Of a DNA stretch of 64,000 nt, positions 3,537 to 63,821 are shown piece after piece. The stretch lies in IMG/VR virus record IMGVR_UViG_3300042556_001053, positions 1 through 64,000 of that record; one strand, written 5' to 3'. Both the position numbers and the translations under genes were made by a program. The number at the start of each line of letters is the position of its first letter. Within the stretch, counting starts at the first letter, position 1. Under the pieces are notes generated by a model. The model did no database searches and was not told the DNA's origin. It worked only from the letters and a program-made list of their open reading frames with translations. Source of the stretch: a virus.

Positions 3537-5309
3537 TTATATTAGTTTTAGGTTATCAAGAAAACTCTTGACATCTTCAGGCATTTGCCTGTCTTCCAAT
3601 TCTACCATAGCTCTCTGCTGTCTTGCAACTTTATCCGCAGATCCCCAGGTATGAATCTCTATCTCAATATTCATTTCCTTTGGGGTATGAGAAATGGCAC
3701 CAAATACTGCCCCACAAACAGCATCTGCCAAGTCCTTAGACTTCTTTCTAGGGTGATCTACACGATTACCCTTCATGATCTTAAGCTCTGACATTTCTTC
3801 CAGAAGCAAGGGAATCATGGGCATAGCAATACGCTCTTCATAGACCATCATTGCTAAATCTTCGTAGTGTTTTTTGGCAACAGAAACAGTATCAGTTCTT
3901 ATTCCTACCTGCTTTAGCTCTTGCTGAATATCATATGACTGCCAACGGTCAAATGAAACAATACCAATATTAAAACCTTGTCTGCGTAGATTAATAATCC
4001 ATTGTTTTACTTCAGATAGATTAACGGGTCCTTCTGCCTTTGGTTCCCACCATGCTACTGCATCTACTACAACTATTGGTGCTACCTGTTCATAATCTTT
4101 AATTACCTGGATATTTACCCATTTATCTACGTGAGCAATAGCAACTGCACACTTATCGTGCTTCTGTGCAAGGTCAGCGTGAATGTAATATTGCTTGTCT
4201 GGATCTGGCTTAAAGTTTTCTGCAAATCTTCTAAAGCTATCCACAGGGTTTGTTAAGGTCATACAGTTAATAAGTTTATCCTTTTGCTTAAAGAAAGCAT
4301 CTGATGCATAGGTTGGTGTACACAAGAAGCGCATCATTGCATCTCCTAAGTCTGTTAGGAATGCTATCTTAAAGTCATCAATCTGTCTGGTAGGGTTTAC
4401 TTCCCATGTTGGTCGCTTTAATGCCAATACCTTTGGAATCTTGTATGAAATAATATGATCTTCTTCCCATGCAATCTCAAAGAAGTTGTCTGGGTTATCT
4501 TCTGGTAGGTCTTCGTTAATAATAAACTTATGTGATCTATCTACAATTTCTTTCTCAGCAATTACTGCATCGTACCTTTGTGAAATAAAGTCACCTGGAT
4601 AGCGTGGGAATGAAAGCAAAACTACCTTACCAAGATCAGGAAAACGAGAGTCTACGGTACCACGGAAAGCTTTATATATATTGTCCGCAGTTTTTCCTTG
4701 TTCATTTCCTGTTGCTACTTCTGATGCAAAGCCAGAAATTTCATCAAGCACAGCCATAAACAAGTTCAAACCCTCATGTGATTCACGCTCTGAGTGACCA
4801 GAGTAAACAGTGATTGACTTATCAAACTCAATTGAATCTGCTTTAGGGTTATACTTTCCAGCAAACCAGGGTGATCTTTCAATCTTTGACTTAAACCCTT
4901 TAAAGAAAACATTTTTAGCCTGTTGAGCGTTAATAGCAACGTTAATGATATCAATAGCATCTCCTGCAGGCTTACCGTAGTAGACTGCTGGATCTTTTAA
5001 ACATAACATCTTATATACTACATATGCACATGCTACTGTAGATACGAAGTCTTTTCCAGATCCCTTGCCAAGTTGCAGAATGATCTCATTCTTTGTGTAC
5101 TTTTTAAAATATGCTTCACCATCATCACGAATATCCATTACATCTTCTTTACGATATATCTGACTCATTGCTTCAACTATGTCGTATTGTATATCAGAAA
5201 GCGGTGGTTGGCCAAGATAATCTGGAGACTCAACAAATGTTTTTGCATCTACTGGCTGTTCAACAAAATGGTTTTCCTTTAATACTTCTAAGAACTCTTT
5301 AAAACTCAT
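3537..5309 (-). CDS. terL: Terminase large subunit
   Basis: 590 residues. It starts at the ATG at 5309, overlapping the TGA of the upstream gene (ATGA); a further in-frame start at 5330 would add seven residues but needs a longer overlap. The N-terminal ATPase shows Walker A GKGSGKD (about 81-87) and a Walker B-like MAVLDE (about 188-193). The C-terminal RNase H-fold nuclease has three spaced acidic motifs: HADLAQKHDK (about 376), SFDRW (about 453) and DLADAV (about 525). This is the packaging motor and headful or cos nuclease that docks on the portal. It is unusual in lying about 40 kb from the portal gene, at the end of the replication cluster. Confidence 0.93.
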   Translation of the reverse strand: MSFKEFLEVLKENHFVEQPVDAKTFVESPDYLGQPPLSDIQYDIVEAMSQIYRKEDVMDIRDDGEAYFKKYTKNEIILQLGKGSGKDFVSTVACAYVVYKMLCLKDPAVYYGKPAGDAIDIINVAINAQQAKNVFFKGFKSKIERSPWFAGKYNPKADSIEFDKSITVYSGHSERESHEGLNLFMAVLDEISGFASEVATGNEQGKTADNIYKAFRGTVDSRFPDLGKVVLLSFPRYPGDFISQRYDAVIAEKEIVDRSHKFIINEDLPEDNPDNFFEIAWEEDHIISYKIPKVLALKRPTWEVNPTRQIDDFKIAFLTDLGDAMMRFLCTPTYASDAFFKQKDKLINCMTLTNPVDSFRRFAENFKPDPDKQYYIHADLAQKHDKCAVAIAHVDKWVNIQVIKDYEQVAPIVVVDAVAWWEPKAEGPVNLSEVKQWIINLRRQGFNIGIVSFDRWQSYDIQQELKQVGIRTDTVSVAKKHYEDLAMMVYEERIAMPMIPLLLEEMSELKIMKGNRVDHPRKKSKDLADAVCGAVFGAISHTPKEMNIEIEIHTWGSADKVARQQRAMVELEDRQMPEDVKSFLDNLKLI

Positions 5310-5836
5310 GACCAAAAACCAACTATACAATACTTAACGCCAGAAGTAACTGGGTCTGCTGAATGAATAAACTCTTCTGATGATGGAAATACAAATAGAG
5401 TGTTTGACTTTGCTTTAAATGACTTATTAAGATTGCTAAAGGTAATTGTTCCACCATCATAGTTATCGTTTAGGTACAGCACTGCAGATATTTTTCTAGG
5501 AAATTCTTCAGTAGAATCTATATGCTCTGCAAAAAATTGTCCTGGAACATACCTGACAACATGATATCCTTCTCCAGTAGTTATATTAATACTGTGTCTT
5601 ATTGCATACTCATTAACAATAAAATCAACTTCTTTTCTTAGCAGATCGTTTAATTCAACATCTATTCGTTTAACGTTTGCATCCCTTATATCTTTTGCTG
5701 AAAGCTTATTGTTTGTTTTGTATCTAGACTTCGCAACTCTTGCATCTGCCCATTCATGCTCTGAACAATGACCTAAAACATAGTCTAATTTTATGTTTGG
5801 TACATCATAGATAGAAATCATGTCTAAACTATTCAT
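5306..5836 (-). CDS. 2OG-Fe(II) oxygenase, prolyl-4-hydroxylase-like (solitary copy)
   Basis: 176 residues. The double-stranded beta-helix core carries the iron ligands H105, D107 and H158 and the 2-oxoglutarate-binding K168, with the family landmarks VLYLNDNYDGG and FVFPSS. It is inserted between the small and large terminase genes with coding overlaps at both ends (8 nt with terS, ATGA with terL), so it is translated together with the packaging enzymes. The eight other family members of this genome lie at 57.3-63.8 kb. The family hydroxylates protein side chains (often proline) or small molecules; the substrate here is unknown. All catalytic residues are present, so activity is likely. Confidence 0.85.
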   Translation of the reverse strand: MNSLDMISIYDVPNIKLDYVLGHCSEHEWADARVAKSRYKTNNKLSAKDIRDANVKRIDVELNDLLRKEVDFIVNEYAIRHSINITTGEGYHVVRYVPGQFFAEHIDSTEEFPRKISAVLYLNDNYDGGTITFSNLNKSFKAKSNTLFVFPSSEEFIHSADPVTSGVKYCIVGFWS

Positions 5837-18679: not shown

Positions 18680-21600
18680 TCAAGTTGTTGTAAAGGTTAC
18701 TGAGCCAGAGGCTGAGGATCCAGTCTGGTTTGCCCCTGAGTAAACAGTTACCGTAACAGTATATTGTGTTGCACGGGTTCCTCCAGTAATGGTTCTGCTT
18801 CTAGCGGCAGTGCTGTTGGCAGTGACTCCATTAAGATTTGTGGAAGGAGAAGTTGTAATAGAGTATGAAGCCTGATTGGTAGCACTCCAACTTAAAGCTC
18901 CTCCAAAATTGCTTGGAACAACTGCAACATTAGAAATTGTTGCTATTACAGATCCAAAGAACGGTGGGAAGAACGGTGGGAAGAACGGTGGGAAGAACGG
19001 TGGGAAGAATGGGAAGAATGGAGGGAAGAAAGGAGGGAAGAAAGGTGGGAAGAAAGGAGGGAAGAACGGAGTTGCTCCAAAGAATGGAGGGAAGAAAGGA
19101 GGGAAGAAAGGTGGGAAGAAAGGAGGAAAGAATGGGCTTGCACTAAAGAACGGCGGGAAGAACGGCGGGAAGAACGGCGGGAAGAATGGACTAGCAGTAG
19201 TCACTCCAGTAATAAGCGTTGTTTCTCCAACATCAGTACTTGATGGCTGTGGAGCAAGAAGCATGTTTGAAGTAGCTCTTGGTGAGTACCCTCCAGGTAG
19301 GCTTGTTGGGGTAGTTGAATTAAAATAAACACGGTATCTACTGCTTTGTGTTGGTGTAGTTGGATAACTAGTTACAGCAGATCCATTATTTACAAATGCA
19401 AAAGCATTATCTTGAACAACATATCTGTTTATAACAAACATATCAGCATATTGTTGTCCTGGATAAAACTTTGCTTCATACTCCATTATATTTGCGGGAG
19501 TTCCATACTGATATCCTAACCATCTTACTATATATGAAGATGAATCTCCAAAATAATAAAGTGAGGTTTGTTGCATATCTCTTGGCATTACAGAAAATAC
19601 TAATCCAGATGTGCTGGTTACTGAGTCTGACGTATTAGCAGTTACTGCACTGGAGTTTCCTAAACTTATATAGCCATTGGTGGATACGCTTATTCTGTTA
19701 CCCATTGCAAAGGTATATTCTGCTGGAGCTGTATAAGTTACAGAGCCAGAACCTTGGGTGTCTGTAATAGCATTTGCAGTTGTTATGCTTGATCCAGAAG
19801 ACAGTGATGCTGATGTACCAGTCTGATTTAGTCCAGAATAAACTGTAATACTATTTACTGTAACTGTTCTAGATAATGAATCATTAGATATAACAGGAAT
19901 ACTTGGACTAGTTGCACTTGAGTTTCCAGTAACATTGAAGGTAGAAAGCCCTGATGCGGTTATATTAATTGAATAGCTTTGTGCTCCAGATTGTGTCCAT
20001 GAAACATTTGCACCTTTATTTGTATTAATTGCACGTATGCCAACTGATGCTGTTCCAGTTGATGTTACCGTAAATGTTCCATCTGTTAGCAATGATGATG
20101 GGTTTGTTGGAGATGAGCCACCAGAACCTGCTCCAGATACCGTAAATAAGCCTGCTGCTGATGTATTGGATCCGTTTGCCCATGATACAGATCCAGTATT
20201 TGATGGTGGTGTATTAGAAACAGATATGCTAGTAGAAGAACCTGGAGCAATAGAATTATTACTAATAGATATTCCACTAATTGATGGAGGGGCTGCAGGT
20301 GTAGTAAATTGAGTACCAGTAGATGAAACAGTGTCTCCAGTTCCTGATGTTATTATAAGTACTGGAGTGTAACTTGTTTGTTCAGAAAGAGAAACCGACT
20401 TGGATACTTCTGTTGTTCCGCTATGTGAGCCTACACCAGTTAATGACCACGAAGACTGATTTGTTTTTGTCCAAGATATTAATGCGCTATTATATGTAAT
20501 AGAGCTTGCTGTTGGTCCAGAGTTTATTGCTGGAATATCCATAGATATAGATGATGGAGATCCTGAACCTGTTGAGTTCTTTGCTCTAACATAAAAAGTA
20601 TTGCTTCCAGATAATCCACTTACGCTATATGTTAAAACATTACCAATGTCTGTATATCCTAGGTTGTTAATTTGATACTCATAAGATGTAACTGTTCCAG
20701 CGGGTTTTTCCCACGTAAATGTTTTTGATCCACCATTTCCAGGAGACTTTGCTAAATTTGGCGGTGCTGGTGGAATTGCTACTGATGTAGTAAATGATGC
20801 ACCAGTAGTAGTTGCTGTATCACCATTAGGTCCAGTGATAGTTAGAGTTGGTGTATAAGTTGTGCTTGGGCTTAATGCATTATTAACAGCATAGGTTGTT
20901 TGTGTAGTTCCAGTAAACGGATTTCCTGTAGCCCCTGGTATTGATAAAGAAAAAGAAGATTGATTTGTGGTTTGATTTGTCCAGTTAAAGGCTGCACTAA
21001 CCGATGTTACTGGATTTGCTGCTGGGAAAGAAGAAATAACTGGTGGGGTAAATTGTCCAGTGTTTACCGAAGACCCTGAACCAGAACCATTGTATGCTCT
21101 TACTTGAAACGTGTTTATACCATTTATAACATTTAAAGAAACTGAAGTGGTTAAACCAACATCAATAAATCCTAAATTGTTTATTTGATACTCATATCCT
21201 GTTGGAGTTGAACCACCTGACGGTGCACTCCAAGTAAATGTTTTAGCTAAACCATTTCCTGTACTCCTTTGAAGGTTTGTTGGAGGGCCTGGTACTGGGG
21301 CTGATGTGGTAAATGTTCTTGATGCTGATACTGTGTCTCCGCTTGAAGATGTAACTGTAAGTGTTGCTGTATAGGTTGTGCTTCCAACAAAAGCATTGTT
21401 TACTGCATAAAATGTTCCAGAATCATTTCCAGTAAAAGGTGTGCCAGTGGCACCTGGTATAGATAGAGAATAGCTTGATTGATAGGTTGATGTCCAATTA
21501 AATAAAGCTGACGTTGATGTTACTGGATCTGGTGCTGGGAAAGTAAGAGTTGGTATAGTAAATTGTCCAGTGCTTACAGACGTTCCTGGTCCTGCTGCAG

Positions 21601-23269
21601 ATCTTGCTCTTACTGAAAATGTTAAATTTTGCCCAGCTATGCTTGTAAAAGATACAGAACGTGTTAGTCCTGTGCTTACCCAGCCTGCACCACTTAGGTT
21701 GTATTCATAGGATGTAGGAGCTGTTCCAGATGATGGTGCGTCCCATGTAAATGTTTTATTTGGTCCATTACCCAAAGTTCTTTGAAGGTTTGTTGGAGGG
21801 CCTGGTACTGGAGCAAGAGTGGTAAATGCGGTTCCTGAAACAGTATGGGTATCTCCAGTTGATGATGTAACAGTAATTGTGGGTGTATATGTTGTACTTC
21901 CTTGCAAGTCAAACGGTGGAGTTGCAATAGGGGTAGACTCAGTGGTTGTTGCTGAATACGGAGATGTTGCTCCTGCTGGAGATAAAGAAATAGAATAGCT
22001 TGCTTGGTCATTAGATGCCCAATCTATTTCTGCTGCTGTTGAATTAAATGTAACAGCAAATGGTGGCGTTGTAACTCTTGGTACAATAAATGATGGAGTT
22101 GATACAGCTGAGCTTTCAGATGTTGGACCAACAGACCTTACTGAAAAAACATTTTGTGACCCATAGACTGTTGTTATTGAAACACTAGTTAATAGATTAT
22201 TACTGATCCAGCCAGAATCACCAAATGGGCTTGTATATCTATATTCATACTTTGTTAGTGTTCCTCCTCCAACAGGTGCTGTCCAACTGAAGGTTTTTGA
22301 TGTTCCGTTGCCCAAAGTTCTTTGAAGGTTTGTTGGAGGATTTGGTGGGGTTTGAAGTGGTCCAAATACAGCAAATTGTTTAATTCCATAATCCTCCCCT
22401 ATATTATAATCAGTTCCACTATTTTTTTGTGTATCAACAGCATAGTAATATGTACCTTCTGGAATGGTTGCTGGTGTAACTAAAGATGATGTAACATTGT
22501 AAACATTAGATGTAACAGATGGAGTATTTGTAGTTATTCCTGATGTAACCTCAGTTCCATATGTTGCTATATTTGATGTATTATATGTTCCACTTGTTGC
22601 TGTATACCATTTAACTGAGCTTCTTGTTGAGTCTGGCAGATATTCTGCGGTACCGTTCCAAGATGAAGAGTATTGCAATGTAGCTGGTAAAGATGTAACA
22701 ACTCCAATAATTCTCGGATCTACTCCTGATTGTTTTAATGGGTTATTTCTAATTAATGGAATTCTATATCCAAGACCAGTCTCTGTATTATCTGTATTAT
22801 CTATACCTTCTGCACCTGTTGATGTTATTGCTTTTACTGTAAATAATAGCCATTTACCATCCCATAAGTTTGAATCAAAAGTAATTGACACATATGGTCC
22901 ACCCATAGGTGTTTCAGATATAAGGCTTGTGTATGGGCCAGTGTCTAACGTTGCTGATGTTGAACCTTCAAGCTTGTATTTATATGAAGATATTGTTTCT
23001 CCATTTCCATCCCAAATTCCTCTTTGTGCATATTTTGTTGAACCAAAAATAATTGGCTCAATTACATAATTATTTCCTGCTGTATCTGAAGAAAAGTACG
23101 GTGCTTTTGTTGTAAATGGTCCAGATTTCGGCCAAAATAGTTTCCATAATGTTGATGTAGATTTTATCCATGCCCTTGTAACTGGAACCCACTCTGTTGG
23201 GCTTTTCTTAACCCATATTTTAGTAGCAGAAGCCCAGGTAGTTGGGTTTTTTTTAATCCACAATGGCAT
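18680..23269 (-). CDS. Giant fibronectin-III/Ig-repeat tail protein with Phe-Phe-Pro-Pro tract
   Basis: 1529 residues from the ATG at 23269, just after the stop of the upstream tail gene. The N-terminus has a Trp-rich short repeat (xWIKKxPTxWxxxTxxW, about three copies). Residues about 100-1060 alternate four fibronectin-III-like modules (opening PPTNLQRTLGNG, TFxW, YEYxxN) with Ig-like modules (xxSALFNWTxxxQSSYSL), pairwise repeated. A nidogen-like stretch precedes residues about 1360-1438, which are almost only F-F-P-P, and one last Ig-like module ends the protein. It is probably a tail-tip or fibre adhesin. Its location directly after two other tail-tip genes supports this. Confidence 0.8.
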   Translation of the reverse strand: MPLWIKKNPTTWASATKIWVKKSPTEWVPVTRAWIKSTSTLWKLFWPKSGPFTTKAPYFSSDTAGNNYVIEPIIFGSTKYAQRGIWDGNGETISSYKYKLEGSTSATLDTGPYTSLISETPMGGPYVSITFDSNLWDGKWLLFTVKAITSTGAEGIDNTDNTETGLGYRIPLIRNNPLKQSGVDPRIIGVVTSLPATLQYSSSWNGTAEYLPDSTRSSVKWYTATSGTYNTSNIATYGTEVTSGITTNTPSVTSNVYNVTSSLVTPATIPEGTYYYAVDTQKNSGTDYNIGEDYGIKQFAVFGPLQTPPNPPTNLQRTLGNGTSKTFSWTAPVGGGTLTKYEYRYTSPFGDSGWISNNLLTSVSITTVYGSQNVFSVRSVGPTSESSAVSTPSFIVPRVTTPPFAVTFNSTAAEIDWASNDQASYSISLSPAGATSPYSATTTESTPIATPPFDLQGSTTYTPTITVTSSTGDTHTVSGTAFTTLAPVPGPPTNLQRTLGNGPNKTFTWDAPSSGTAPTSYEYNLSGAGWVSTGLTRSVSFTSIAGQNLTFSVRARSAAGPGTSVSTGQFTIPTLTFPAPDPVTSTSALFNWTSTYQSSYSLSIPGATGTPFTGNDSGTFYAVNNAFVGSTTYTATLTVTSSSGDTVSASRTFTTSAPVPGPPTNLQRSTGNGLAKTFTWSAPSGGSTPTGYEYQINNLGFIDVGLTTSVSLNVINGINTFQVRAYNGSGSGSSVNTGQFTPPVISSFPAANPVTSVSAAFNWTNQTTNQSSFSLSIPGATGNPFTGTTQTTYAVNNALSPSTTYTPTLTITGPNGDTATTTGASFTTSVAIPPAPPNLAKSPGNGGSKTFTWEKPAGTVTSYEYQINNLGYTDIGNVLTYSVSGLSGSNTFYVRAKNSTGSGSPSSISMDIPAINSGPTASSITYNSALISWTKTNQSSWSLTGVGSHSGTTEVSKSVSLSEQTSYTPVLIITSGTGDTVSSTGTQFTTPAAPPSISGISISNNSIAPGSSTSISVSNTPPSNTGSVSWANGSNTSAAGLFTVSGAGSGGSSPTNPSSLLTDGTFTVTSTGTASVGIRAINTNKGANVSWTQSGAQSYSINITASGLSTFNVTGNSSATSPSIPVISNDSLSRTVTVNSITVYSGLNQTGTSASLSSGSSITTANAITDTQGSGSVTYTAPAEYTFAMGNRISVSTNGYISLGNSSAVTANTSDSVTSTSGLVFSVMPRDMQQTSLYYFGDSSSYIVRWLGYQYGTPANIMEYEAKFYPGQQYADMFVINRYVVQDNAFAFVNNGSAVTSYPTTPTQSSRYRVYFNSTTPTSLPGGYSPRATSNMLLAPQPSSTDVGETTLITGVTTASPFFPPFFPPFFPPFFSASPFFPPFFPPFFPPFFPPFFGATPFFPPFFPPFFPPFFPPFFPFFPPFFPPFFPPFFPPFFGSVIATISNVAVVPSNFGGALSWSATNQASYSITTSPSTNLNGVTANSTAARSRTITGGTRATQYTVTVTVYSGANQTGSSASGSVTFTTT
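18956..19190 (-). repeat. 12-bp tandem repeats encoding (Phe-Phe-Pro-Pro)n
   Basis: About 18 units in three blocks separated by short Ser-Ala-Ser, Gly-Ala-Thr interruptions. The proline codons differ by block: CCA-CCG in one, CCT-CCT in the next, CCG-CCG in the last. Each block therefore seems to have expanded separately and recently. The unit length is a multiple of three, so copy changes keep the frame. Confidence 0.95.
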
Positions 23270-23270
23270 A

Positions 23271-26200
23271 TTAATATTGTACCAGTAAGTCTCCAGCATA
23301 TCCAGTATCGTCGGTTGGAGCCTGAGTTCCATAAGACGTTGGCTTATAGTATACTGCCATTCCAAGCATAACCTCTCCAGTTACTGGATCTTCAATTAAC
23401 ATTCTTGATCTTGGGTATCTTCCAAGTGGATTGACACCACGATATGATCCACTTCCGTCTGGAACTACTGTTGCGTTGGTAGCTATAGTCATATCTAAAT
23501 CTCTTTGAACCTGTATACCAGTTATTACAACACCGTAAGTTGGATCTAGAGTAATCTTTGATGGACCTGAATATGCTGAAACACCACCTACTGGAAATGC
23601 ACCACCACGTCCAACTCCAGAACCTACAACAACCTGATTACTTCCTTGTATAGTAATCTTGGATTCGGTTCCAACACTAATAAAAGTATTTGTTGCTGCA
23701 TTTATTTTTATTCCAGTGCTGTCAAACTGTTGCCATACATTTGTTGCTGCATTTATTTTTATTCCAGAAGAAGTAAACTTTTGCCAAATATTTGCTGTTG
23801 ATGAGATTTCAATTTTTTGTCCATCTGGCAAACTTGCAGAATCACCATCAATATTAATAAATACGTTTTCTGTTGCAACTAGCTTAATTTTTTTACTAGT
23901 AAATGCTGCCCATGCACCATACTTTGTGCTTGGAGAGTATGCTGCAGCTCCAGTTTCTGGATCAACTACAGTAGTTTGTGCAGTATAAAATAACATTGAT
24001 GGTGTGTTTGTTGCAATAGCTGGATTTAGCTTATCTCCAGTTGCAGCTGAGCCTTTATCCAAAAGAAGTCCTAGGTTTGGAGCTACTGATAACTGTATAC
24101 CAGTTGTGCTTGCAGTAATAAATGGATCGCTTCTTTGAAGAGTGAAGTAGTCCCAATCACCAGTATATAGACCTACTCCCTTTACTGTAGTAACTCCATC
24201 TGCTAATACAGAATTGTTCCAGTAATCCTTAAAGCTTGATCCAGCTGCAATGTATGGTCCGTTTACAGGTCCTGATGATGCTATTTGTTTACCAGTTGAC
24301 CATGGCTCAGTCGGGTTTGGACTAGTTAAATATATGTTATTATTTCTTGGAACTAAAAATGCTGCTGGACCTAGAGTACCACCAGGGGTTCCAGCTGATT
24401 GCAATGACATATAACCATGTTCACCATCCATGGTCATCTTGCCTAATGCTCCTACGCTTGATACAGTTCCAGTAATCTTAGCATTTGACGCATACAGGTT
24501 TCCAGCTAGCGTTACTCTAAATGCATGAGTTGTTCCTATAGCACCAAAACTATCTGAACCAGCCCAAAACACGTTTTCTGTTCCAACAGGCGTACCGTTA
24601 ATGTTGTCTGATGGCGTACTACCAGTGGATATGTATGGTCCATTTATTCCAGCTGTGTACCCCGCAATATTTTGTGAACTTACTGATATATTTCCATCGG
24701 ATGAGTTTAATGATATATTTGCAGCACCAGACCTTGATATAGATGAAGCATTTACATTCCAGCCACCAATAACAGCGCTTCTTGTAGTAAATAAACCATC
24801 TTCTGATCTTATTGTTGTTATATCTCTTGTTGTTGATGAGTTAAAAGTTAGGCCATCTTTGTTTAATATAAAACCAGTTCCTGTAATCAATATAACTGAT
24901 CCAACTGAATCAGTAACTAAAGCATTAGTTGTATTAGCAACAGTAAACGTGTTTGATGTCCTTGCTGTTATTTTAAACTTGCCGTTGTACCCTTCTGGCA
25001 AAAGTCCAGAAATAAGGATATCATCTCCAACTACATACCCATGGTTAATTGAACCAGTTGTATAAGTTGCTGTTGTTGCTGTATAAGTAACGCTGGAGAT
25101 TGCAAATACTGTTGGTGGCGTAATAAATGATTGAAGAGATCCTCCACCAGCTATTGAAACGTTTCCACTAAAATTTCCTTTTCTTGCAGAGATGTTTCCA
25201 TCAATTACAAAATCAGAACCGCTCCAGTCAATATAGTTTGAATTTTCTCCACCAACCCTTATTGAAGCTGATTGATCTGAATCAATGCGCCAGTAGTTAT
25301 ATGAATTAAACCTTAATCCACGTAGTGATGGACCATCATCTTGAATTCCATATCCAAACCTAAATGCTGTGCTATCAGCATCAGATGCATTTGCTTTTGC
25401 TTGAAAATATCCAGAGACATTTACTTTTTCACTTGCAATATACGGAGTTCCACCTATCTCAACATTATTACCCGCAAAGTAATTTGAAGAAAGATTATTG
25501 TACTGATCATATGTTGCAACCGCAATCTCATATTCTGCCCCAAGGCTTAGTCCAGTTAACCTATAAGATGTTGCGTCTCCAATTGAGTCTGCAGTTGAAT
25601 ATTTTGAAACTGGATCTGTAACTGGTCTATACCTTATTCTGTATCCACGTATATCTCCAGCTGTTATTGGGCTCCATGAAAGGTCAATATATCCATTAAA
25701 TCCAACTACTCCTGTAGAATCTATTCCACCTGATGTCTCAAGTGATGTAACATCTGGTGGCCCCTCATTGTCTGCACCTACAGAACTTGTTGGTGTTACT
25801 TTTTTAGCAGCAGAAAAAGCTGTGTATATTCCAGCATCTGAAGAAAATCTTGCCTTTACCCATCTTTGGTTTGTTCCATCAGTAATTATATTTGCTGGAT
25901 TTATTGATCCAAAATAAGTTCTGATATATGTAACACCTGTTGGCTCTGTTAAATCTGTAGACTCATATTCAACCACATCAATAGCATCATAAACATCTTC
26001 AACTGGAGTTGTGTATGAAACACTATAGCCACCTTGAATTGGTTTAACATCAATAACTGGTATTGGCAAACTTAAAACATATTCTGGAACTGTTGGAGCA
26101 CAAATTGTATTGCTTATGTTATTGAGTGGATCTGCAGTCAAAACACATACTGCAGAAAAACTTGTTCTAAACACATTAAACATTGATGTAATTATAGATT

Positions 26201-26718: not shown

Positions 26719-27246
26719 TTACTTTGGCCCTATTGCCATCCAGTTTACAAAAAAAGTTCCAGTTATTGCGATTCCATCACTGTTAGTACTATTTGGATTA
26801 GTTACTCTGTATGTAAAGCCCTCTTGTGTTACAGCTACAACAGTTACTACAATATGAGAATTCCACTTTACTTTAGTAGATTGTGTATTTTGTATTGTTG
26901 CAGTCACTATTGGAGGTGCATCAAATGATGATGCTCCAGATACGTCGTCTGCAAAAACAACATCGCCATAGTATACCTGTGGCACATTGTTACTAGCTGA
27001 ATCAAAGGTAATTCCTGGTAACTCTGGATTAAACTTGTTCTTACCAAAAACAATCTTTTGTGATCCTGGGTCATACTCATGAGATAAGTCAGACTCACCT
27101 TGCCAGTTTGTCTCGCCTGTACCCTGAATTCCAAAATTATTAGTAATTGCGGTAATGCTATCGCTATGCTGATTAACAACATTAATAACTTGCTGCCATG
27201 CAGCAACGTCTATTACGTTTGGATCTGATATTTTAATGTATGACAT
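26719..27246 (-). CDS. Tail-tip protein with H-type-lectin-like C-terminus
   Basis: 175 residues with AGGAG upstream and its own promoter. The N-terminal 45 residues are helical (a probable trimer anchor). The remaining beta domain ends in a strand pattern FFVNWMAIGPK, like H-type lectin or gp37-like fibre tips that bind sugars as trimers. It lies between the hub and the long fibre genes. Carbohydrate binding is an inference from this C-terminal pattern. Confidence 0.6.
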   Translation of the reverse strand: MSYIKISDPNVIDVAAWQQVINVVNQHSDSITAITNNFGIQGTGETNWQGESDLSHEYDPGSQKIVFGKNKFNPELPGITFDSASNNVPQVYYGDVVFADDVSGASSFDAPPIVTATIQNTQSTKVKWNSHIVVTVVAVTQEGFTYRVTNPNSTNSDGIAITGTFFVNWMAIGPK

Positions 27247-56702: not shown

Positions 56703-57275
56703 ATGAGAAGAGATAAAAAGATTTGGATTGGAATCCTTGCTGCACTTGGGCTTATTGCACCACTAAGTAATGCAGCTAATGCTTTAAGTACTGAAAATAA
56801 CTTGAGTAAACCAGCCATTGCTGAACCTTCAACCGCCAAGGCGGTTTTTTTGGTTTCTAAGCCTAAAAGTCTGGTAGCAGTAAAAAAGAACCTAAATGTT
56901 CTACATAAGTATCAGGATGCTGTTAGTCTTACAGACCGTCAGTTAAAGGAGCTTTTGCATGCCGTTGGTTTTCGTGGCCAAGGCCTAGTAAAGGCTTGGG
57001 CGGTAGCTAAGAAAGAGTCTAATGGCCGTCCACTAGCTTTTAATGGCAATGTTAAGACTGGTGACAACTCTTACGGTATATTTCAAATCAATATGCTTGG
57101 AATGCTAAAAGAAGGTCGTCAAGATAAGTTTGGCCTAAACTTTAATAGTGAGCTCTTAAACCCTGTTATCAATGCACAGGTTGCATATCACATGAGTAAT
57201 GGTGGAAAGAACTGGTCTGCTTGGAAAGGCATGACTCCAAGAACCAAGTCCTGGATGGCTAAGTTCCCTTACTAA
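56703..57275 (+). CDS. Secreted lysozyme/transglycosylase-like muralytic enzyme
   Basis: 190 residues with a strong AGGAGG site. Residues 1-27 are a signal peptide (Arg-Arg-Asp-Lys-Lys, hydrophobic core, Ala-Asn-Ala). A low-complexity linker (about 30-70) leads to a lysozyme-like domain with the catalytic E105 (VAKKESNG), SYGIFQIN (123-130) and NAQVAYHMSNGGKNWSAW (about 155-172), typical of SLT/resuscitation-factor-like folds that cut peptidoglycan. It is the only rightward gene and its stop overlaps that of the oxygenase operon tail to tail. It is probably the endolysin, exported by the host Sec system. A terminator-like hairpin lies inside the linker. Confidence 0.82.
   Translation: MRRDKKIWIGILAALGLIAPLSNAANALSTENNLSKPAIAEPSTAKAVFLVSKPKSLVAVKKNLNVLHKYQDAVSLTDRQLKELLHAVGFRGQGLVKAWAVAKKESNGRPLAFNGNVKTGDNSYGIFQINMLGMLKEGRQDKFGLNFNSELLNPVINAQVAYHMSNGGKNWSAWKGMTPRTKSWMAKFPY
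56831..56851 (+). terminator. Intragenic terminator-like hairpin in the lysozyme gene
   Basis: Plus strand AACCGCC-AA-GGCGGTT followed by five more T residues, inside codons for the linker after the signal peptide. It has the form of an intrinsic terminator about 170 nt into the transcript and could act as an attenuator; a 2-nt loop may refold to a larger loop with a shorter stem. Confidence 0.55.
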
Positions 57276-57850
57276 AAAGGCAAATTTTTATTAAGAACTG
57301 TTGGGTGCTCATCATTACCTCTCATAAATATTGTTGAGAAGTATCTAGGCGAATCATCTAAAACTGGAAGAGATCCATGCATAACTTCTCCTCCATGAAG
57401 TAGGGCTGAGCCAGCTTTTGGTTTAATAGTTATTCCTAATTCTGGGTAGTCAAGCTCTCCACCAAGATAGTTATCATTATAATATATTACAAGGCCATAG
57501 CCTAAATAATATCCTTCAGGGGTTGTATCATTATCACGATGTTGCTTTATTTGATCGCCTTTTTTAAACCTAGAAATCTTTAATTCTTGTTCACAAAAAA
57601 AATATGATGGGAATATGTAGTCAACCTTATCAAAAACCAAGCTTCTACACAAATCTTTATGATCATAAAGGAACAAACTTTTATCGTGCCATAAACTATA
57701 TTCATCTGAAATTTCATTAAGATCAGTCCAGCCATCTTGTTTTTTATCAGAAAGTATATTTAAAATTAAAGACAGTTCTTCTTGATTTAAAAAGTTTTCA
57801 ATTTCATAAACATCCTCTGCAAGTTTGTTAATTTTAAAATTGTATTTCAT
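57272..57850 (-). CDS. 2OG-Fe(II) oxygenase 8 (last gene of array)
   Basis: 192 residues. The core carries H104, D106, H158 and R169, with YYNDNYLGGEL and IKPKAGSALLHGG. The Phe-Pro strand of its relatives is replaced by Leu-Leu-His-Gly, which may alter the substrate cleft. The N-terminal half is Asp/Trp-rich. It starts directly after the dehydrogenase stop (TAAATG) and its end overlaps the lysozyme gene. The substrate is unknown; prolyl-4-hydroxylase-like by motif. Confidence 0.85.
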   Translation of the reverse strand: MKYNFKINKLAEDVYEIENFLNQEELSLILNILSDKKQDGWTDLNEISDEYSLWHDKSLFLYDHKDLCRSLVFDKVDYIFPSYFFCEQELKISRFKKGDQIKQHRDNDTTPEGYYLGYGLVIYYNDNYLGGELDYPELGITIKPKAGSALLHGGEVMHGSLPVLDDSPRYFSTIFMRGNDEHPTVLNKNLPF

Positions 57851-58519
57851 TTAACCAAACTTACTACTACCTATATGGTTCATTTCAATATGATTAATAT
57901 TAAAATGACTTGGAAGATCTGATACCCACCTAATAGACTCTGCAAGATCTTCAGCAGTCAAGGCTATTTCACGTCTTTCTGTTTGTGTATCAATAGTTCC
58001 TGGGCATATTTCAGTAACCTTAATGCCGTAAGCAGGAAACTCTAAACGCATAGTATCAACTAGTGCCATCATTCCTCTTTTAGCGTTTATATAGTTACCA
58101 CCACTACGGTATGGAACCTTTCCACCCAAGGAACTTATAAATATAATAGTTGGAGACTTAGACCTTTGCATGCATGGAACAAAAAGCTGTGAAAGGTACA
58201 TAGGTCCAGAGACATTTATTTCGTAGGCAATTCTAAAATTATCCATTGTTTCATTTATAAGCATTGTTGGACCTGATCCACCACCAGCATTATTAACTAG
58301 AAGGTCAAGTGTGATATCTTTGTATTTTTCAAAAAAAGACTTAATCTCTTCAGGATTAGTTATGTCCATCTTGTATGTTTCAACATTGTCAGATACAAGC
58401 TCATTGACCTTAGAAAGGTTTCTAGAGACAGCTATAACCTTGTAGCCACTCTCAGACAGAAGTTTTACTGTAGCATAGCCAACGCCCTTGCTAGCCCCTG
58501 TAACTATGGCTGTTTTCAT
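57851..58519 (-). CDS. Short-chain dehydrogenase/reductase (YdfG-like)
   Basis: 222 residues. The Rossmann motif TGASKGVG (7-14), NNAG (76-79), the catalytic Ser near 130 and Y143-x3-K147 are intact. An Arg after the second strand (VSRN) suggests NADP. The C-terminal region AESIRWVSDLPSHFNINHIE is like YdfG-type hydroxy-acid or 3-hydroxy amino-acid dehydrogenases. The start overlaps the upstream oxygenase by ATGA and the next oxygenase follows immediately, so it belongs to the oxygenase operon. It could oxidise a hydroxyl made by an oxygenase or reduce a ketone; this is inference. Confidence 0.9.
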   Translation of the reverse strand: MKTAIVTGASKGVGYATVKLLSESGYKVIAVSRNLSKVNELVSDNVETYKMDITNPEEIKSFFEKYKDITLDLLVNNAGGGSGPTMLINETMDNFRIAYEINVSGPMYLSQLFVPCMQRSKSPTIIFISSLGGKVPYRSGGNYINAKRGMMALVDTMRLEFPAYGIKVTEICPGTIDTQTERREIALTAEDLAESIRWVSDLPSHFNINHIEMNHIGSSKFG

Positions 58520-59220
58520 CTGTTGTCCGTAGGCTGTGTACCGCCAGATAAGTCGTTATACCAGTGCATAGGTATCATATATTTAAAACCACTTTTTACA
58601 AGGTGAGCTGTATGATGATAAGGAGGAGAAGATGGGAATATAATTACGCTTCCAGCTTCTGGTTTAATTCCTATTGTTATTCTGTCAGAATCCTTGGACA
58701 AAGAGTAGTCTTCTGATGGCTTTCCATTAATAATAGGGGCATCTGGGGACTCTATGGTAAAAGATAATTCGCCACCTTCGTAGTCATCATTTAAATAAAA
58801 CACTAAAGAGTATCTTAACCTAGTGTCCCCTTCTTGTTGATCAAAGTGTGCACCCATAAAGGTTCCAGCGCTATATTTTTTAATATCAAAGGCTGGTAGA
58901 ATCATTGGCTCTTCCATGTCTCCTTTTGATACTGCATAGTCTTTGCAGACATTATAGAATAAATCAGTTATTGTGTTATATATGTAACTAACAGGGCTAG
59001 CATCTTTATCTGCTATTTTTTCAGAATCAGATGGCTGAACAGTTTTTTGAGATCCATACAAATACATCTCTCCACTGCAGGCTGTCCACTCATTCCATTT
59101 AGTCAAGGATGTGCCATAGTCTTTGCTCTCAGTGGCTTCAATCATTTCTATAAACTTTTTTGGATCTGCTATTGCATTTTTATAGTAATATATGTTTTCT
59201 TCAAGTATTTCTCTTTGCAT
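58516..59220 (-). CDS. 2OG-Fe(II) oxygenase 7
   Basis: 234 residues. Catalytic set H125, D127 (AHFDQQEGD), H203 and K213; FYLNDDYEGGELSF and IKPEAGSVIIFPS are present. Closely related to its upstream neighbour (shared KDYA.S.GD.xEP, KKYxxGxxMGAHFDQ), so the pair is a tandem duplication. It overlaps the dehydrogenase start by ATGA. The N-terminal 100 residues form a helical domain not found in minimal prolyl hydroxylases; it may choose the substrate. Confidence 0.88.
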   Translation of the reverse strand: MQREILEENIYYYKNAIADPKKFIEMIEATESKDYGTSLTKWNEWTACSGEMYLYGSQKTVQPSDSEKIADKDASPVSYIYNTITDLFYNVCKDYAVSKGDMEEPMILPAFDIKKYSAGTFMGAHFDQQEGDTRLRYSLVFYLNDDYEGGELSFTIESPDAPIINGKPSEDYSLSKDSDRITIGIKPEAGSVIIFPSSPPYHHTAHLVKSGFKYMIPMHWYNDLSGGTQPTDNR

Positions 59221-59963
59221 TACATTATCCCCTTATTTGATTGTTGAGGATACATGCTCATGTTGTTGTGTATCCAATGACCTGGAACCATATACTTAAA
59301 TCCAGACTTTACTGTATGTGCTATATGAAAATATGGTGCTTTTGCAGGAAAAATTATTACGCTATTTGCTTTTGGCTTTATTCCAAAGTCTATTGATTTG
59401 CTTGCCTTGGCTATTTCATAATCTAGGTCTACACCTGGTGCTCCATGAACCCAGCCTTCGGAGCTATTCCATCCACCATCATAGTCTTTAAGCTGAAATG
59501 AAATTTCTCCGCCTTCACAGTCATCATTTAAATACATGACTAAAGAATATCTTAGTGTTTCATCTCCATCTAGTTGATCAAAGTGTGCTCCCATAGATCT
59601 TCCAGTATTATACTTTTTAATATTAAATGTTGGAAACAGATTTGGCTCATCGTAGTCTCCAAGAGATAAAGCATAATCTTTACATACATTATGAAACGTT
59701 TTCATAACAGCATCATAAATATACTTGGTTTTTTCTCCAACCTCGTCTTTTAATTTATTAATTGAATCTAAATTAAAGGTTTTGGTTTCACCATAGATAA
59801 AAGACTTATCGTTAGAAGATGTCCAAGGCTCCCAAACATTTACGTTATGTTCACTTGATGCGTCCAATGCGTCCAGCTCTTTTAAAATTTTCTGAAAAGT
59901 ATCAAAATTTTCTATTGCATCAGTATAATAATAAACCTTTGGATCTAAAATTTCTTTATTCAT
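59220..59963 (-). CDS. 2OG-Fe(II) oxygenase 6
   Basis: 247 residues with AAGGAGA upstream. H127, D129 (AHFDQLDGDE), H213 and K223 are intact. Paralogue of the next gene; it differs by an insertion at about 160-185 rich in Gly/Trp between the two halves of the beta-helix. Overlaps the next gene by 1 nt. Unknown substrate. Confidence 0.88.
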   Translation of the reverse strand: MNKEILDPKVYYYTDAIENFDTFQKILKELDALDASSEHNVNVWEPWTSSNDKSFIYGETKTFNLDSINKLKDEVGEKTKYIYDAVMKTFHNVCKDYALSLGDYDEPNLFPTFNIKKYNTGRSMGAHFDQLDGDETLRYSLVMYLNDDCEGGEISFQLKDYDGGWNSSEGWVHGAPGVDLDYEIAKASKSIDFGIKPKANSVIIFPAKAPYFHIAHTVKSGFKYMVPGHWIHNNMSMYPQQSNKGIM

Positions 59964-59972
59964 TCTGTCTCC

Positions 59973-60632
59973 TTAATATTTATTATTTTCATAGAAGTTT
60001 TTTTCTTTTATAAAACCAACTAGAACATATCTAATTGGTCCCTCACCAACTGGAATTACTCCGTGATGAAAATCGCTAGTTCCTGGGAAAATAAGAAGTG
60101 ATCCCTTTTTAGGTTTTATTTTTAAATCTAAGTTTTTAAAAAACAATTCTCCATCAGCATACTCATCATTAAGATATAAAATGGTTGCATAACGAATTGA
60201 GGGATCTGTGTCTTGATCTGTATGAGCCTTTAGTTCAACTCCAGGCTGCATCCTTTGCAATGTAGCTAGTCCACTTAGCTCTAAATTACTTCCTTCATTA
60301 ACTACGGCTTTATTTAGTCTTTGATATACAGTGTGATAGATTGGATATGCCCTTATTACCAGATTCTTGTCTTCCCAGTTTCTGGTGATCTCAAACTTTC
60401 CTTCAGCAACAAGATTGTCAACGTCATCTCTACCAAATTTTTCCATACAGAATCTTTTAAGGTTGGAAGTATATTCTATAAACCAATCCTCGTCTGGTGT
60501 ATTGTTGATAATCTCTAAATAGTCGTCTATTTCTTCTTGAGAAATAAAATCTTCTAATAAAAGTAGATCTTTTGATATTTCTTCAAATTTTATTCCTAGA
60601 TCAGTTAGCTCTTTTGTAAGATATGCAGACAT
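59973..60632 (-). CDS. 2OG-Fe(II) oxygenase 5
   Basis: 219 residues with an extended AGAGGAGGTAATC ribosome site, the best in the operon. H137, D139 (AHTDQDTD), H190 and R201 form the active site, with LYLNDEYADGELFF and IKPKKGSLLIFPG. The N-terminus (LLLLEDFISQEEIDDYLEIIN) is the standard helix before the catalytic core. No close paralogue among its neighbours. Confidence 0.88.
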   Translation of the reverse strand: MSAYLTKELTDLGIKFEEISKDLLLLEDFISQEEIDDYLEIINNTPDEDWFIEYTSNLKRFCMEKFGRDDVDNLVAEGKFEITRNWEDKNLVIRAYPIYHTVYQRLNKAVVNEGSNLELSGLATLQRMQPGVELKAHTDQDTDPSIRYATILYLNDEYADGELFFKNLDLKIKPKKGSLLIFPGTSDFHHGVIPVGEGPIRYVLVGFIKEKNFYENNKY

Positions 60633-60633
60633 A

Positions 60634-61383
60634 CTAGATTACCTCCTCTGGCTTATATTTATTTCCATCTTTATCTAGCTTCCACCCTTGCTTAAGTAGC
60701 TCTTGCCACTCTGCTCTTTCAATCTCTTGCTTTGCTCTTGTTTCTTTCATTTCTTCGGCCCATGCATCTCTTACCTCTTGTGGGTAGGCATCTTCTTCAC
60801 GGTCATCCCAGAAAGATCCTATGGTATATCTTACACCTTTAGTAATTAACGATACTTCGTGCATATTATTAAATCCACCGTCAAATACGGCAAGCATTCC
60901 AACCTTTGGCTGAATTTCTATGTTTTGATCTGGAAATCTTAAAAGACCACCTTCAAAATCATCGTTTAAGTACAGGAATCCTGCATATCTACTTCTTGTA
61001 AATGCTCCAGAATTGCCCTTCTCATCTGTATTATCAGAGTGTACTCTTGCATAAGCACCTGGCTCCCACTTTTGAGTATGATATCCAATTTTAGAAATTA
61101 TTTTTGGGTCTAAGTCATGTACTGATGCAATTGCTTCTGGCATCTTACTTTCAATATCTGAAAAAATAGTTGGAGATAGCCCAGCGTCAATTACCTCTTG
61201 ATCATTGTCTTGTGGTAGCACTGAAGAATATGACTCATAAAATGATATAGGCATCCAAGTTAGTCCGCCGTTATTTGCTTGTGCATCAAGTGCATTAATC
61301 ATCTTTTTGCACTCATCTTCACTAACAAAGTTTTCAAAAATAACAATATCCTTTGTAAGTCTTATCTTATTGTTTAGGTTCAT
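60634..61383 (-). CDS. 2OG-Fe(II) oxygenase 4 with charged C-terminal extension
   Basis: 249 residues. H115, D117 (ARVHSDN), H175 and R185 are present, with FLYLNDDFEGGLLRF. After the core a helical Trp/Glu/Lys extension (about 195-249) is unusual in the family and may bind a partner protein. Stop and next start are 1 nt apart. Family prolyl-4-hydroxylase-like; substrate unknown. Confidence 0.88.
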   Translation of the reverse strand: MNLNNKIRLTKDIVIFENFVSEDECKKMINALDAQANNGGLTWMPISFYESYSSVLPQDNDQEVIDAGLSPTIFSDIESKMPEAIASVHDLDPKIISKIGYHTQKWEPGAYARVHSDNTDEKGNSGAFTRSRYAGFLYLNDDFEGGLLRFPDQNIEIQPKVGMLAVFDGGFNNMHEVSLITKGVRYTIGSFWDDREEDAYPQEVRDAWAEEMKETRAKQEIERAEWQELLKQGWKLDKDGNKYKPEEVI

Positions 61384-62261
61384 TTTATTCTCACAGCTCC
61401 TTCTATTTCGTTTCTTTGTGGATGATCTTTTCTAAACTGTTCATGTATTTCTGGTTGCATGCTTGCCCATACATGCTTACCAAACTCTTTTTCTTTTTCA
61501 TACCATTCATCAGACCCTTTTTCATACTTTTGCCAATACATTCTTGACAAAAACTTATTTTTATTGTAAGAAGGCATTACTCCATGTAAGTATGGATCAC
61601 CATTTTCTGTTAAATAATCGGGATGCCCTGATGGAAAAACAAGTAGGTCTCCTGCTTGTGGCTTATATTTAACAAGCTTATCTCCCATTGCAAAGTCAAC
61701 CTCTCCGCCTTCATAGTCGTCATTAAAATAAATAGTGCATGTTATTACAAACTTGTATCCTGGAGCATCTGCCATCTCTCTCTGATAGTCTGAATGATAT
61801 CTCATCCCTACCTTTTCTTCATCAGTGCTTACATGATACTTTCCAACTGTTCCACCAGCCCACTTCCAGGTTGGAACAGTCTGACCACTTTCATCTACAG
61901 ACAAGTCATCTAAATCTACTTCTACCCCATACTTTTTAATATAGTGCTCTGTAGCCAAATAAAAGTTTTCCAACATCTCTATTGCAAAGAGTCGCTGGTC
62001 TTCCTGAGACTGTGTTGTTGTTTTGATATCTTTTAAACCGCCGTACTTATCGTACATAATCAGATTAGGTATTATTGGGCTTAAGTATTCTCCAAAAATA
62101 GACCATTGTGTCCAAGGGCTAAAAAGTCTATCTTCTGAGTTATCCAAAGAATCATTTAAAACTTTGTAAGATTTTGAAATATCTTTAAACATATTTTTAT
62201 AAACTACAATATTTGGGTATATTTCTTCAAACACAATACCATTTTCTTGGGTGTTGTTCAT
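61380..62261 (-). CDS. 2OG-Fe(II) oxygenase 3
   Basis: 293 residues. Iron ligands H156, D158 (RYHSDYQRE) and H226; K236 or R240 likely binds 2-oxoglutarate. Shares its whole length with the upstream gene (FEEIYPNIVVYxNxF start, QEDQRxF, RYHSDY, SGHPxYxTExG, C-terminal INGVRxx-like end). Overlaps both neighbours by ATGA-type junctions. The larger size suggests a different substrate class from the 220-residue members. Confidence 0.88.
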   Translation of the reverse strand: MNNTQENGIVFEEIYPNIVVYKNMFKDISKSYKVLNDSLDNSEDRLFSPWTQWSIFGEYLSPIIPNLIMYDKYGGLKDIKTTTQSQEDQRLFAIEMLENFYLATEHYIKKYGVEVDLDDLSVDESGQTVPTWKWAGGTVGKYHVSTDEEKVGMRYHSDYQREMADAPGYKFVITCTIYFNDDYEGGEVDFAMGDKLVKYKPQAGDLLVFPSGHPDYLTENGDPYLHGVMPSYNKNKFLSRMYWQKYEKGSDEWYEKEKEFGKHVWASMQPEIHEQFRKDHPQRNEIEGAVRIK

Positions 62262-63145
62262 CTTAATCTAACCCCATTATCTATTGTAATTCTTTGTAGG
62301 TTTTCTTTTTCATATTGACCCTGAATCTTATTCATCTCTGACTGCCAAGAGTCACCAAAAATTAGACTTTTTTCTTTCCACTCATCAGATGAGTCTTCAT
62401 ATACTGTCCAAAACATCCTTATAAAATATTTTTCATTTTCTTTACAAATTTCTGCAGCATGTAGATATACCTCACCATCTTCTGTGGAATATTCTGGATG
62501 TCCTGAAGGAAAAACAACAAAATCTCCAGCTTTTGGTTTATAGTTTATTAGCTTATTGCCAACTGCAAAGTCAATTCCGCCTCCTGAATAATTATCATTT
62601 AGGTATATGGTTGTAGTCAAAACAAACTTATATCCTGGGCCCTTTATAGCTTCTCTAACATAGTCGCTGTGATATCTCATTGCTAATCTTTCAGAGTCTG
62701 GCCCAGCAGCGGTAGAACCAACATAATATTTACACAAAGATGGTCCAGTCCAGTTCCACTTTTGATATTTTTTTCCATCTGATTGAACAGTATCTTTTTC
62801 TTCTTTGTGTATTGGGAAGTTGTGTTTTTCAATATAGTGGTTATTAGCCAAATGAAATGCTTTAATTAATTCAATCATAAAATATCTTTGATCTTCTTGA
62901 ACCTTGCTAGTAGGTTCTATGTCAAAGTTAATTTTAAGATCTGAGACATTTTTATCAAAAGATATTCCAAAGTTTTCTATTTTTTCACCTATAGAGTACC
63001 AGTCATTCCACTTGTCCCATATAGCATCTTCATAATTATTTATTGAATCTTTTGCAATCTGATACATTCTTTCTGGGTCTTCAAATATGTTATTGTAAAC
63101 AACAATATTTGGATAAATTTCTTCAAATGTAAGTTCTGTAGTCAT
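62258..63145 (-). CDS. 2OG-Fe(II) oxygenase 2
   Basis: 295 residues from the ATG at 63145, which follows the upstream stop by 1 nt; the longer frame would overlap that gene by 68 nt. H159, D161 (RYHSDYVRE), H229 and K239 are present, with IYLNDNYSGGG and YKPKAGDFVVFPSGHPEY. One acidic residue of the usual GGE motif is replaced by Gly. Tandem paralogue of the next gene. Confidence 0.88.
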   Translation of the reverse strand: MTTELTFEEIYPNIVVYNNIFEDPERMYQIAKDSINNYEDAIWDKWNDWYSIGEKIENFGISFDKNVSDLKINFDIEPTSKVQEDQRYFMIELIKAFHLANNHYIEKHNFPIHKEEKDTVQSDGKKYQKWNWTGPSLCKYYVGSTAAGPDSERLAMRYHSDYVREAIKGPGYKFVLTTTIYLNDNYSGGGIDFAVGNKLINYKPKAGDFVVFPSGHPEYSTEDGEVYLHAAEICKENEKYFIRMFWTVYEDSSDEWKEKSLIFGDSWQSEMNKIQGQYEKENLQRITIDNGVRLR

Positions 63146-63146
63146 A

Positions 63147-63821
63147 TTACGGCTTTCTGTCTCCAGTATGTTCCGTAATTTCCCAAAAAAATGGACATGT
63201 AAATCTAAGCCCACTTTTTATTTCTGTGACCCCATGTATATAGTTCATATCTCCAGGGAAAAAATATGCTGCTCCTTTTTTAGGTTTAAATTGAACTCCT
63301 TGATTTGGAAAGTATAGCTCTCCGCCTTCGTAGTCTTCATTTAAATAAAACAAACTGGAAAGATCATAGTTTGGAAAATCATTTGGCAGTCCTGCGTCTG
63401 GCCCGTCGTGCAGTTCTTTATCAGCGTGTGGTTTTTGGAATTGTCCTGGAAGCCACTTGACAATTGTTGTTCCTGTAGGAATTACTTTTACTTTATAAAA
63501 TTCTTCTACTATTGGTTGCAATCTTTGAAATAGGCCAGCAATGACTGGAGATATCTTTGGATCGTTTTTGTCTAAACTTGGCTGTGTTGCAACTCTATCT
63601 TTCCAATAATCTGAATCGTATACTACTGTACCGTTTTCATTTACATGGCTTTCTGTTACATCCCAAATTGTTAAAGATTTTGCAGCCTTTTCTAAAAACT
63701 CTATTTCTTCTTGTGTCATAAAGTTTTCTAGCTCAACAATCATTTCTTTGCCACTACCAAACCAGCCAGAAGGTGTTATTGATGGCTTTCTAACCACAAC
63801 AGAAGCTTTTATATTATCCAT
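63147..63821 (-). CDS. 2OG-Fe(II) oxygenase 1 (first gene of array)
   Basis: 224 residues. H132, D134 (KPHADKE), H196 and R206 are intact; LFYLNEDYEGGELYFPN and FKPKKGAAYFFPGD are textbook prolyl-4-hydroxylase-like motifs. The ATG lies 6 nt past a TATAAT box, predicting a leaderless mRNA that runs through all eight oxygenases and the dehydrogenase. The first 30 residues are basic and Pro/Gly-rich. Confidence 0.88.
   Translation of the reverse strand: MDNIKASVVVRKPSITPSGWFGSGKEMIVELENFMTQEEIEFLEKAAKSLTIWDVTESHVNENGTVVYDSDYWKDRVATQPSLDKNDPKISPVIAGLFQRLQPIVEEFYKVKVIPTGTTIVKWLPGQFQKPHADKELHDGPDAGLPNDFPNYDLSSLFYLNEDYEGGELYFPNQGVQFKPKKGAAYFFPGDMNYIHGVTEIKSGLRFTCPFFWEITEHTGDRKP

Follow-up and report, generated by a model that had tools for sequence, protein, structure and literature searches.

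Aromatic-proline tracts in tail proteins of aquatic phages as candidate substrates of co-encoded prolyl hydroxylase-like enzymes

What is the role of a long run of phenylalanine and proline in a phage tail protein, and by what process was it built? The question arises from a 64,000-nucleotide stretch of viral DNA (positions 1 to 64,000 of the IMG/VR record IMGVR_UViG_3300042556_001053; hereafter the window), which forms part of a full record of 114,443 bp that we call G000. The original prediction, made from the sequence alone, had announced a Phe-Phe-Pro-Pro tract of about 80 residues, and such a tract does exist, with 78 residues reading ASP-FF(PPFF)3-SASP-FF(PPFF)4-GATP-FF(PPFF)4-PFF(PPFF)4-GS (Table 1). 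The array has periods of 12 bp and 66 bp according to TRF, indicating that segment duplication and 12-bp expansion have both shaped the tract. Three codon-distinct blocks, each arisen separately by slippage, had been proposed; the three signatures (CCG-CCG, a CCT/CCA mixture and CCA-CCG) are indeed present, but the blocks number four. Blocks 2 and 3a share an identical codon order and match at 53 of 54 bases from the first phenylalanine on, and thus derive from one 66-bp duplication and not from separate expansions, so that a separate origin may hold for blocks 1 and 3b, which look like local 12-bp expansions. Phenylalanine is encoded by TTC in 88% of cases over all tracts, versus 20% in the genes of the window (TTT 80%), and the second proline of the units shows an excess of CCG (window 18956-19189; L128 2884-3960). 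An open frame on the antisense strand (18876-19328), encoding KNGG repeats, was rejected as a mechanical by-product of the repeat. The AF2 model of the tract has no regular structure, with a pLDDT of 27-58 that says little on polyproline II.

Table 1. Positions of the tract, its blocks, the protein that bears it and the oxygenase genes (window coordinates unless marked G000).
Feature	Position	Strand	Remarks
FFPP tract	18956..19189	-	78 residues, four blocks; inside ORF 18680-23365
Block 1: P-FF(PPFF)3	19145..19189	-	proline codons CCG-CCG
Block 2: P-FF(PPFF)4	19079..19135	-	CCT/CCA mixed codons; from first Phe on 19079-19132
Block 3a: P-FF(PPFF)4	19013..19069	-	duplicate of block 2; from first Phe on 19013-19066
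Block 3b: P-FF(PPFF)4	18956..19012	-	codons CCA-CCG
1561-aa tail protein, FnIII/Ig-like repeats, bears tract	18680..23365	-	PF00041 at residues 1491-1552; final gene of tail module
2OG-Fe(II) oxygenase J	57272..57850	-	last gene of array
2OG-Fe(II) oxygenase I	58516..59220	-	PF13640
2OG-Fe(II) oxygenase H	59220..59963	-	PF13640
2OG-Fe(II) oxygenase G	59973..60632	-	PF13640
2OG-Fe(II) oxygenase F	60634..61383	-	PF13640
2OG-Fe(II) oxygenase E	61380..62261	-	PF13640
2OG-Fe(II) oxygenase D	62258..63214	-	PF13640
2OG-Fe(II) oxygenase C	63147..63821	-	array goes on past window
2OG-Fe(II) oxygenase B	G000 64552-65229		beyond window
2OG-Fe(II) oxygenase A	G000 66015-66728		beyond window; second FFPP gene upstream of A
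Further PF13640 oxygenase	5306..5836	-	outside array

The predicted placement of the tract in a tail protein is supported by an FnIII domain (PF00041, 29.6 bits in the profile search against a cut-off of 25), by the tail module and by a gene order shared with Streptomyces phage Moab. In the 1561-aa protein the tract is flanked by an Ig/NIDO-like domain and the last FnIII domain. Its gene comes directly after the tail genes, in a position matching that of Moab gp44, and a scan of gp44 gave no proline-rich or aromatic-proline stretch. The order portal-protease-...-tape measure-tail-DnaB-primase-SSB-DnaE in G000 is also that of Moab (Stanwilliamsviridae), and the head protease is ~41% identical over its full length to those of Moab and its relatives. 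By these two traits the phage can be regarded as a Stanwilliamsviridae-like actinophage, for which a freshwater actinobacterium is a plausible host. Elsewhere in the window, long tandem repeats of 138 bp and 78 bp are found in tail-fibre-like genes (50948-52225 and 54800-55020).

Relatives at the same site were retrieved using the C-terminal portion of the tail protein in the window. Every homologue found, from 79% down to ~30% identity, has 6 to 16 aromatic-proline units at the equivalent place, and no homologue has unrelated sequence there. The tract always precedes either a short tail or a domain of FnIII-like type, and in two cases it consists of HFPP or YFPP units. Since these relatives come from other metagenomes, the window tract is not an assembly artefact. 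A comparison of repeat number between strains, as the original prediction had proposed, was carried out at a sister locus, the second FFPP gene of G000, where 35, 39 or 43 units are found, changing in frame, among strains whose FnIII part is 99-100% identical. In the record IMGVR_UViG_3300044645_001103 (L354/L431) the head protease is 100% identical to that of the window, whereas the end of the tail protein is only ~79-84% identical and the number of blocks is different, which is suggestive of fast change at the tail tip.

Far from being very unusual, as had been supposed, such tracts are common in aquatic phage contigs, with the FFPPx3 pattern occurring in at least 119 IMG/VR stretches. Among the matches listed, these stretches form 53 DNA clusters and represent at least five unrelated protein contexts, including FnIII proteins, small proteins of 120-180 aa and proteins with a C-terminal S74 chaperone (PF13884) or a Hint-like domain. 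The first position of the unit is F, Y, H or W. Several of the proteins (L033, L006, L024, L116 and others) have Hint/intein-like ends and others end in an S74 chaperone or Cys-rich tips, which suggests variable tips behind a constant tract. For the N-terminal part of the small proteins a PASTA identity (PF03793) was discarded, the match reaching 13.1 bits, below the cut-off of 23.2, in one sequence only. A search of cellular genomes (257 Gb) gave 12 FFPPx3 matches, most of them spurious, against the 119 or more in IMG/VR, which places the viral tracts well above chance expectation. Only four of the cellular loci look genuine (L141, L144/L149, L150); L141, L144 and L150 have oxygenases alongside and are thus probably viral contigs, so that a cellular origin of the tracts was rejected. 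In phage isolates the FFPP proteins had no tblastn match, in a search that effectively covered the flanking domains, since BLAST masks the tract.

The original prediction had also mentioned that the tract might be a substrate of prolyl hydroxylase-like enzymes of the same genome. G000 encodes 13 PF13640 domains, 12 of them above the curated cut-off, and ten of these genes lie in tandem at 57.3-66.3 kb, eight of them within the window. The HxD...H motif is kept in 12 of the 13 copies, the remaining one (87870) having HxE. Directly upstream of this array, on the same strand, is the second FFPP gene (G000 66884-67960; L128 2884-3960), whose product consists of two FnIII domains and then a tract of 39 units. 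The gene upstream of it encodes a collagen-like protein (PF01391; G000 68001-68720; L128 4001-4720, minus strand), possibly a second hydroxylase substrate. The array also contains a short-chain dehydrogenase (window 57851-58519) and, between oxygenases A and B, a 258-aa protein without Pfam match (G000 65239-66015; L128 1239-2015), and it is adjoined on the opposite strand by an SLT/lysozyme-like gene (window 56703-57275).

The residues H138, D140 and H191, which make up the HxD...H iron triad of the oxygenases, are invariant among 55 homologues, and the basic residue for 2OG binding is present as well. The PDB profile matches are prolyl and lysyl hydroxylases, reaching 3e-12 for a Bacillus P4H. 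The AF2 model has a pLDDT of 94 and its top PDB folds are prolyl hydroxylases with TM values of 0.5-0.64, the closest being Pseudomonas putida P4H with EF-Tu, the algal P4H with (Ser-Pro)5, PBCV-1 P4H and PHD2. By fold and nearest solved relatives the enzymes are therefore predicted to be peptidyl prolyl hydroxylase-like. Array members C and J have sub-threshold Tet_JBP matches, for which reason nucleic-acid substrates may also be envisaged.

The association between tracts and oxygenases extends well beyond G000. PF13640 is present, usually in 6-11 copies, in 46 of the 50 longest FFPP records among the matches listed, versus 6 of 50 records of comparable length selected for a Pro-Thr repeat (Fisher p about 8e-17); the four tract contigs with no oxygenase in hand are partly fragments. 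The FFPP records contain 3.04 oxygenase ORFs per 10 kb and the Pro-Thr records 0.12, so that a tie to any proline-rich tail repeat was rejected. A single record of the Pro-Thr set (1/50) has an FFPP tract, and this record alone has a six-oxygenase cluster, which begins 1.3 kb beyond the tract. Conversely, when loci were retrieved with oxygenase B as the sole query, 67 of 80 contained a tract gene and only 8 collagen-like genes, so that collagen was rejected as the principal partner of the oxygenases; of six Pro-Thr control loci with a collagen-like frame, four contain a 2OG gene as well. The phage's own lineage was sampled by head protease (19 records), a cluster being defined as six or more oxygenases; clusters were present in 9 of the 11 records that bear a tract and in none of the 8 that lack one, one of which is 118 kb long. 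Neither environment nor lineage by itself therefore explains the link.

The arrangement is strongly polar. Oxygenase and tract gene are on the same strand in 284 of 311 cases, and oxygenase density amounts to 8.1 per 10 kb within 1 kb downstream of the tract gene and to 0.12 per 10 kb within 1 kb upstream. Where 3 kb of sequence was available on the side in question, an oxygenase lies within that distance downstream of 59 of 73 tract genes and upstream of 1 of 50, which becomes 24 of 31 and 1 of 26 when counted by DNA cluster; 160 fresh loci gave 96 of 109 downstream and 1 of 74 upstream. The order of the subfamilies, A-B-C-E-F-G-H-J, is conserved across loci. Furthermore, the set of enzymes follows the repeat unit. 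In an exploratory, post hoc comparison subfamily A was present with 27 of 28 tracts having three-residue FFP units versus 1 of 35 pure FFPP/YFPP tracts, and the rule, stated beforehand, agreed with 104 of 105 fresh loci from two scans, the search patterns of which separate lineages as well. On trees built from subfamilies B and C, the match of motif and subfamily A corresponds to no more than about 3-6 independent switches, and the informative supported pairs on these trees all agree, in numbers too small for a significant sign test.

The position of tract genes directly before rows of oxygenases, seen across hundreds of related viral fragments, suggests that these enzymes serve to modify rods made by the phage itself. 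We consider it likely that the tracts form rod-like modules of tail proteins and are acted on by hydroxylases that the same phage encodes, and we are moderately confident that they define an undescribed protein-modification cassette of aquatic phages, in which aromatic-proline tail rods are combined with co-encoded, sequence-matched prolyl (or phenylalanyl) hydroxylases. Units of the type (F/Y/H/W)-F-P-P, with optional F-F-P units, are built into FnIII tail or adhesin-like proteins of many aquatic phages, and the polar cassette of these phages comprises the gene for the tract protein followed by several peptidyl prolyl hydroxylase-like 2OG-Fe(II) enzymes. Within the infected cell these enzymes would hydroxylate the prolines (or Phe/Tyr) of the tract, with subfamily A matched to FFP units and B and C to FFPP units, and hydroxylation would confer solubility and stiffness on a rod that is otherwise very hydrophobic and suit it to a role at the surface. 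Sequences and models show directly that the tract is conserved, that it is linked to the oxygenases with a fixed polarity, that motif and enzyme match, and that the enzymes have the fold and catalytic triad described above; the location in the virion, the hydroxylation and its effect on solubility or adhesion are all inferred. For the cassette tract, the substrate role put forward originally is strongly favoured by gene linkage, polarity and the matching of motif and enzyme. The window tail gene is ~38 kb away from the array, so that its link with the enzymes consists of the same motif in the same genome; by that identity its tract, which may be an extended rod or spacer of aromatic and proline residues in the virion tail protein, would be modified by the array enzymes as well.

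A different possibility, to which we assign a minor share, is that the tract is an unmodified spacer or adhesive rod and that the oxygenases act elsewhere, on the host surface, on host proteins such as EF-Tu, on nucleic acid or on the 2OG pool, being neighbours of the tract gene through a shared host-interaction cassette. In the literature, cyanophage 2OG genes are credited with effects on the 2-oxoglutarate level, DNA repair or host metabolism (PMC9602691, PMC3037559), which is in line with this possibility, as are the P. putida P4H bound to EF-Tu as closest fold and the weak Tet_JBP matches in C and J; however, the linkage is strictly polar, is directed to the tract gene and is absent from other kinds of proline-rich tail protein, and the enzyme repertoire follows the repeat unit. 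It is more doubtful that the enzymes act on the tract but mainly on phenylalanine or tyrosine, or that the proline hydroxyls serve as glycan anchors. Half of the tract is F, the aromatic residue varies (F, Y, H, W) at position 1 only, and 6-11 enzymes per genome exceed the need of one proline site, but the close structural and profile relatives are all prolyl or lysyl hydroxylases, and no glycosyltransferase was identified in the G000 array. Direct insertion of the tract in lipid or binding to glycans, also suggested originally, is very unlikely and found no support: the extreme hydrophobicity of the tract and its company of FnIII domains and a lectin-like neighbour gene (26719-27246, a sub-threshold H_lectin match) would agree with it, but in the 1561-aa protein the tract sits between two globular domains. 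Finally, a selfish slippage product without function is scarcely credible, despite the codon blocks, the 66-bp duplication and the differences in unit number between strains, given that third codon positions within tracts vary freely, yet F, P, Y, H and W account for 97% of 7126 tract residues even when interruptions are counted (FP being demanded by the unit definition), and that remote homologues keep a tract at the equivalent place and tracts recur in no fewer than five protein contexts unrelated to one another. Residue make-up was used here in place of non-synonymous counts within units, which were dropped as proof of selection because the unit definition forbids such changes. Selection on the protein probably maintains the tract while the repeat number changes.

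The proposal of tracts hydroxylated by co-encoded enzymes can be compared with several known systems. The prolyl 4-hydroxylase of the Chlorella virus PBCV-1 acts on Pro-Ala-Pro-Lys repeats, not on FFPP, and PBCV-1 is not known to have a multi-enzyme operon together with the substrate. This enzyme (vCPH, PDB 5c5t) is likewise a viral peptidyl prolyl hydroxylase and matches the G000 enzymes in fold and profile, although PBCV-1 infects eukaryotic algae, unlike the phage of G000. The title of Eriksson et al. 1999 (cited in PMC9301287) refers to characterisation of its peptide substrates and argues for 4-hydroxyproline in viral proteins. The plant and algal P4Hs acting on cell-wall glycoproteins, whose structure with (Ser-Pro)5 (PDB 3gze) is the second-best fold match to the G000 enzyme, also hydroxylate tandem proline repeats, but they are eukaryotic, recognise a Ser-Pro motif and belong to a secretory pathway with glycosylation. 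Collagen-like phage tail fibres, one of which is encoded beside the second FFPP gene, provide proline-rich repeats that prolyl hydroxylases might modify; they differ from FFPP tracts in forming a Gly-X-Y triple helix and in their presence at only 8 of 80 oxygenase loci.

Large 2OG families are known from cyanophages (PMC9602691, PMC3037559), which like G000 have many diverse PF13640 genes per phage, as in cyanophage S-SCSM1 with its 24 2OG-Fe(II) oxygenase genes, whose function is described as uninvestigated by the authors of that study (PMC9602691). In S-SCSM1 two runs of oxygenases (4 and 3) are found among tail fibre genes, and between them is a short tail fibre with RQPRNF-type repeats (L454 16081-17346), an arrangement that is possibly the cyanophage counterpart of the cassette. 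This phage showed no FFPP tract and no operon beginning with a tract gene. A separate search for the repeat pattern YRxPFTYR gave no match. The literature search, which covered few subscription papers, returned no description of FFPP tracts or of a tract-hydroxylase operon. What appears new is the pairing of FFPP tract and hydroxylases, a viral prolyl hydroxylase with repeat substrates (PBCV-1) and the large cyanophage 2OG families being already known.

The conserved, polar and motif-matched pairing with an FFPP gene provides a concrete candidate substrate for phage 2OG-Fe(II) enzymes. If the proposal is true, hydroxylated proline rods would be built post-translationally on phage tails, as a phage counterpart of the systems that hydroxylate extensin or collagen. 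The proposal would then account for one large group, or more, of the phage 2OG-Fe(II) genes, and part of what has been filed as 'auxiliary metabolism' would be virion assembly.
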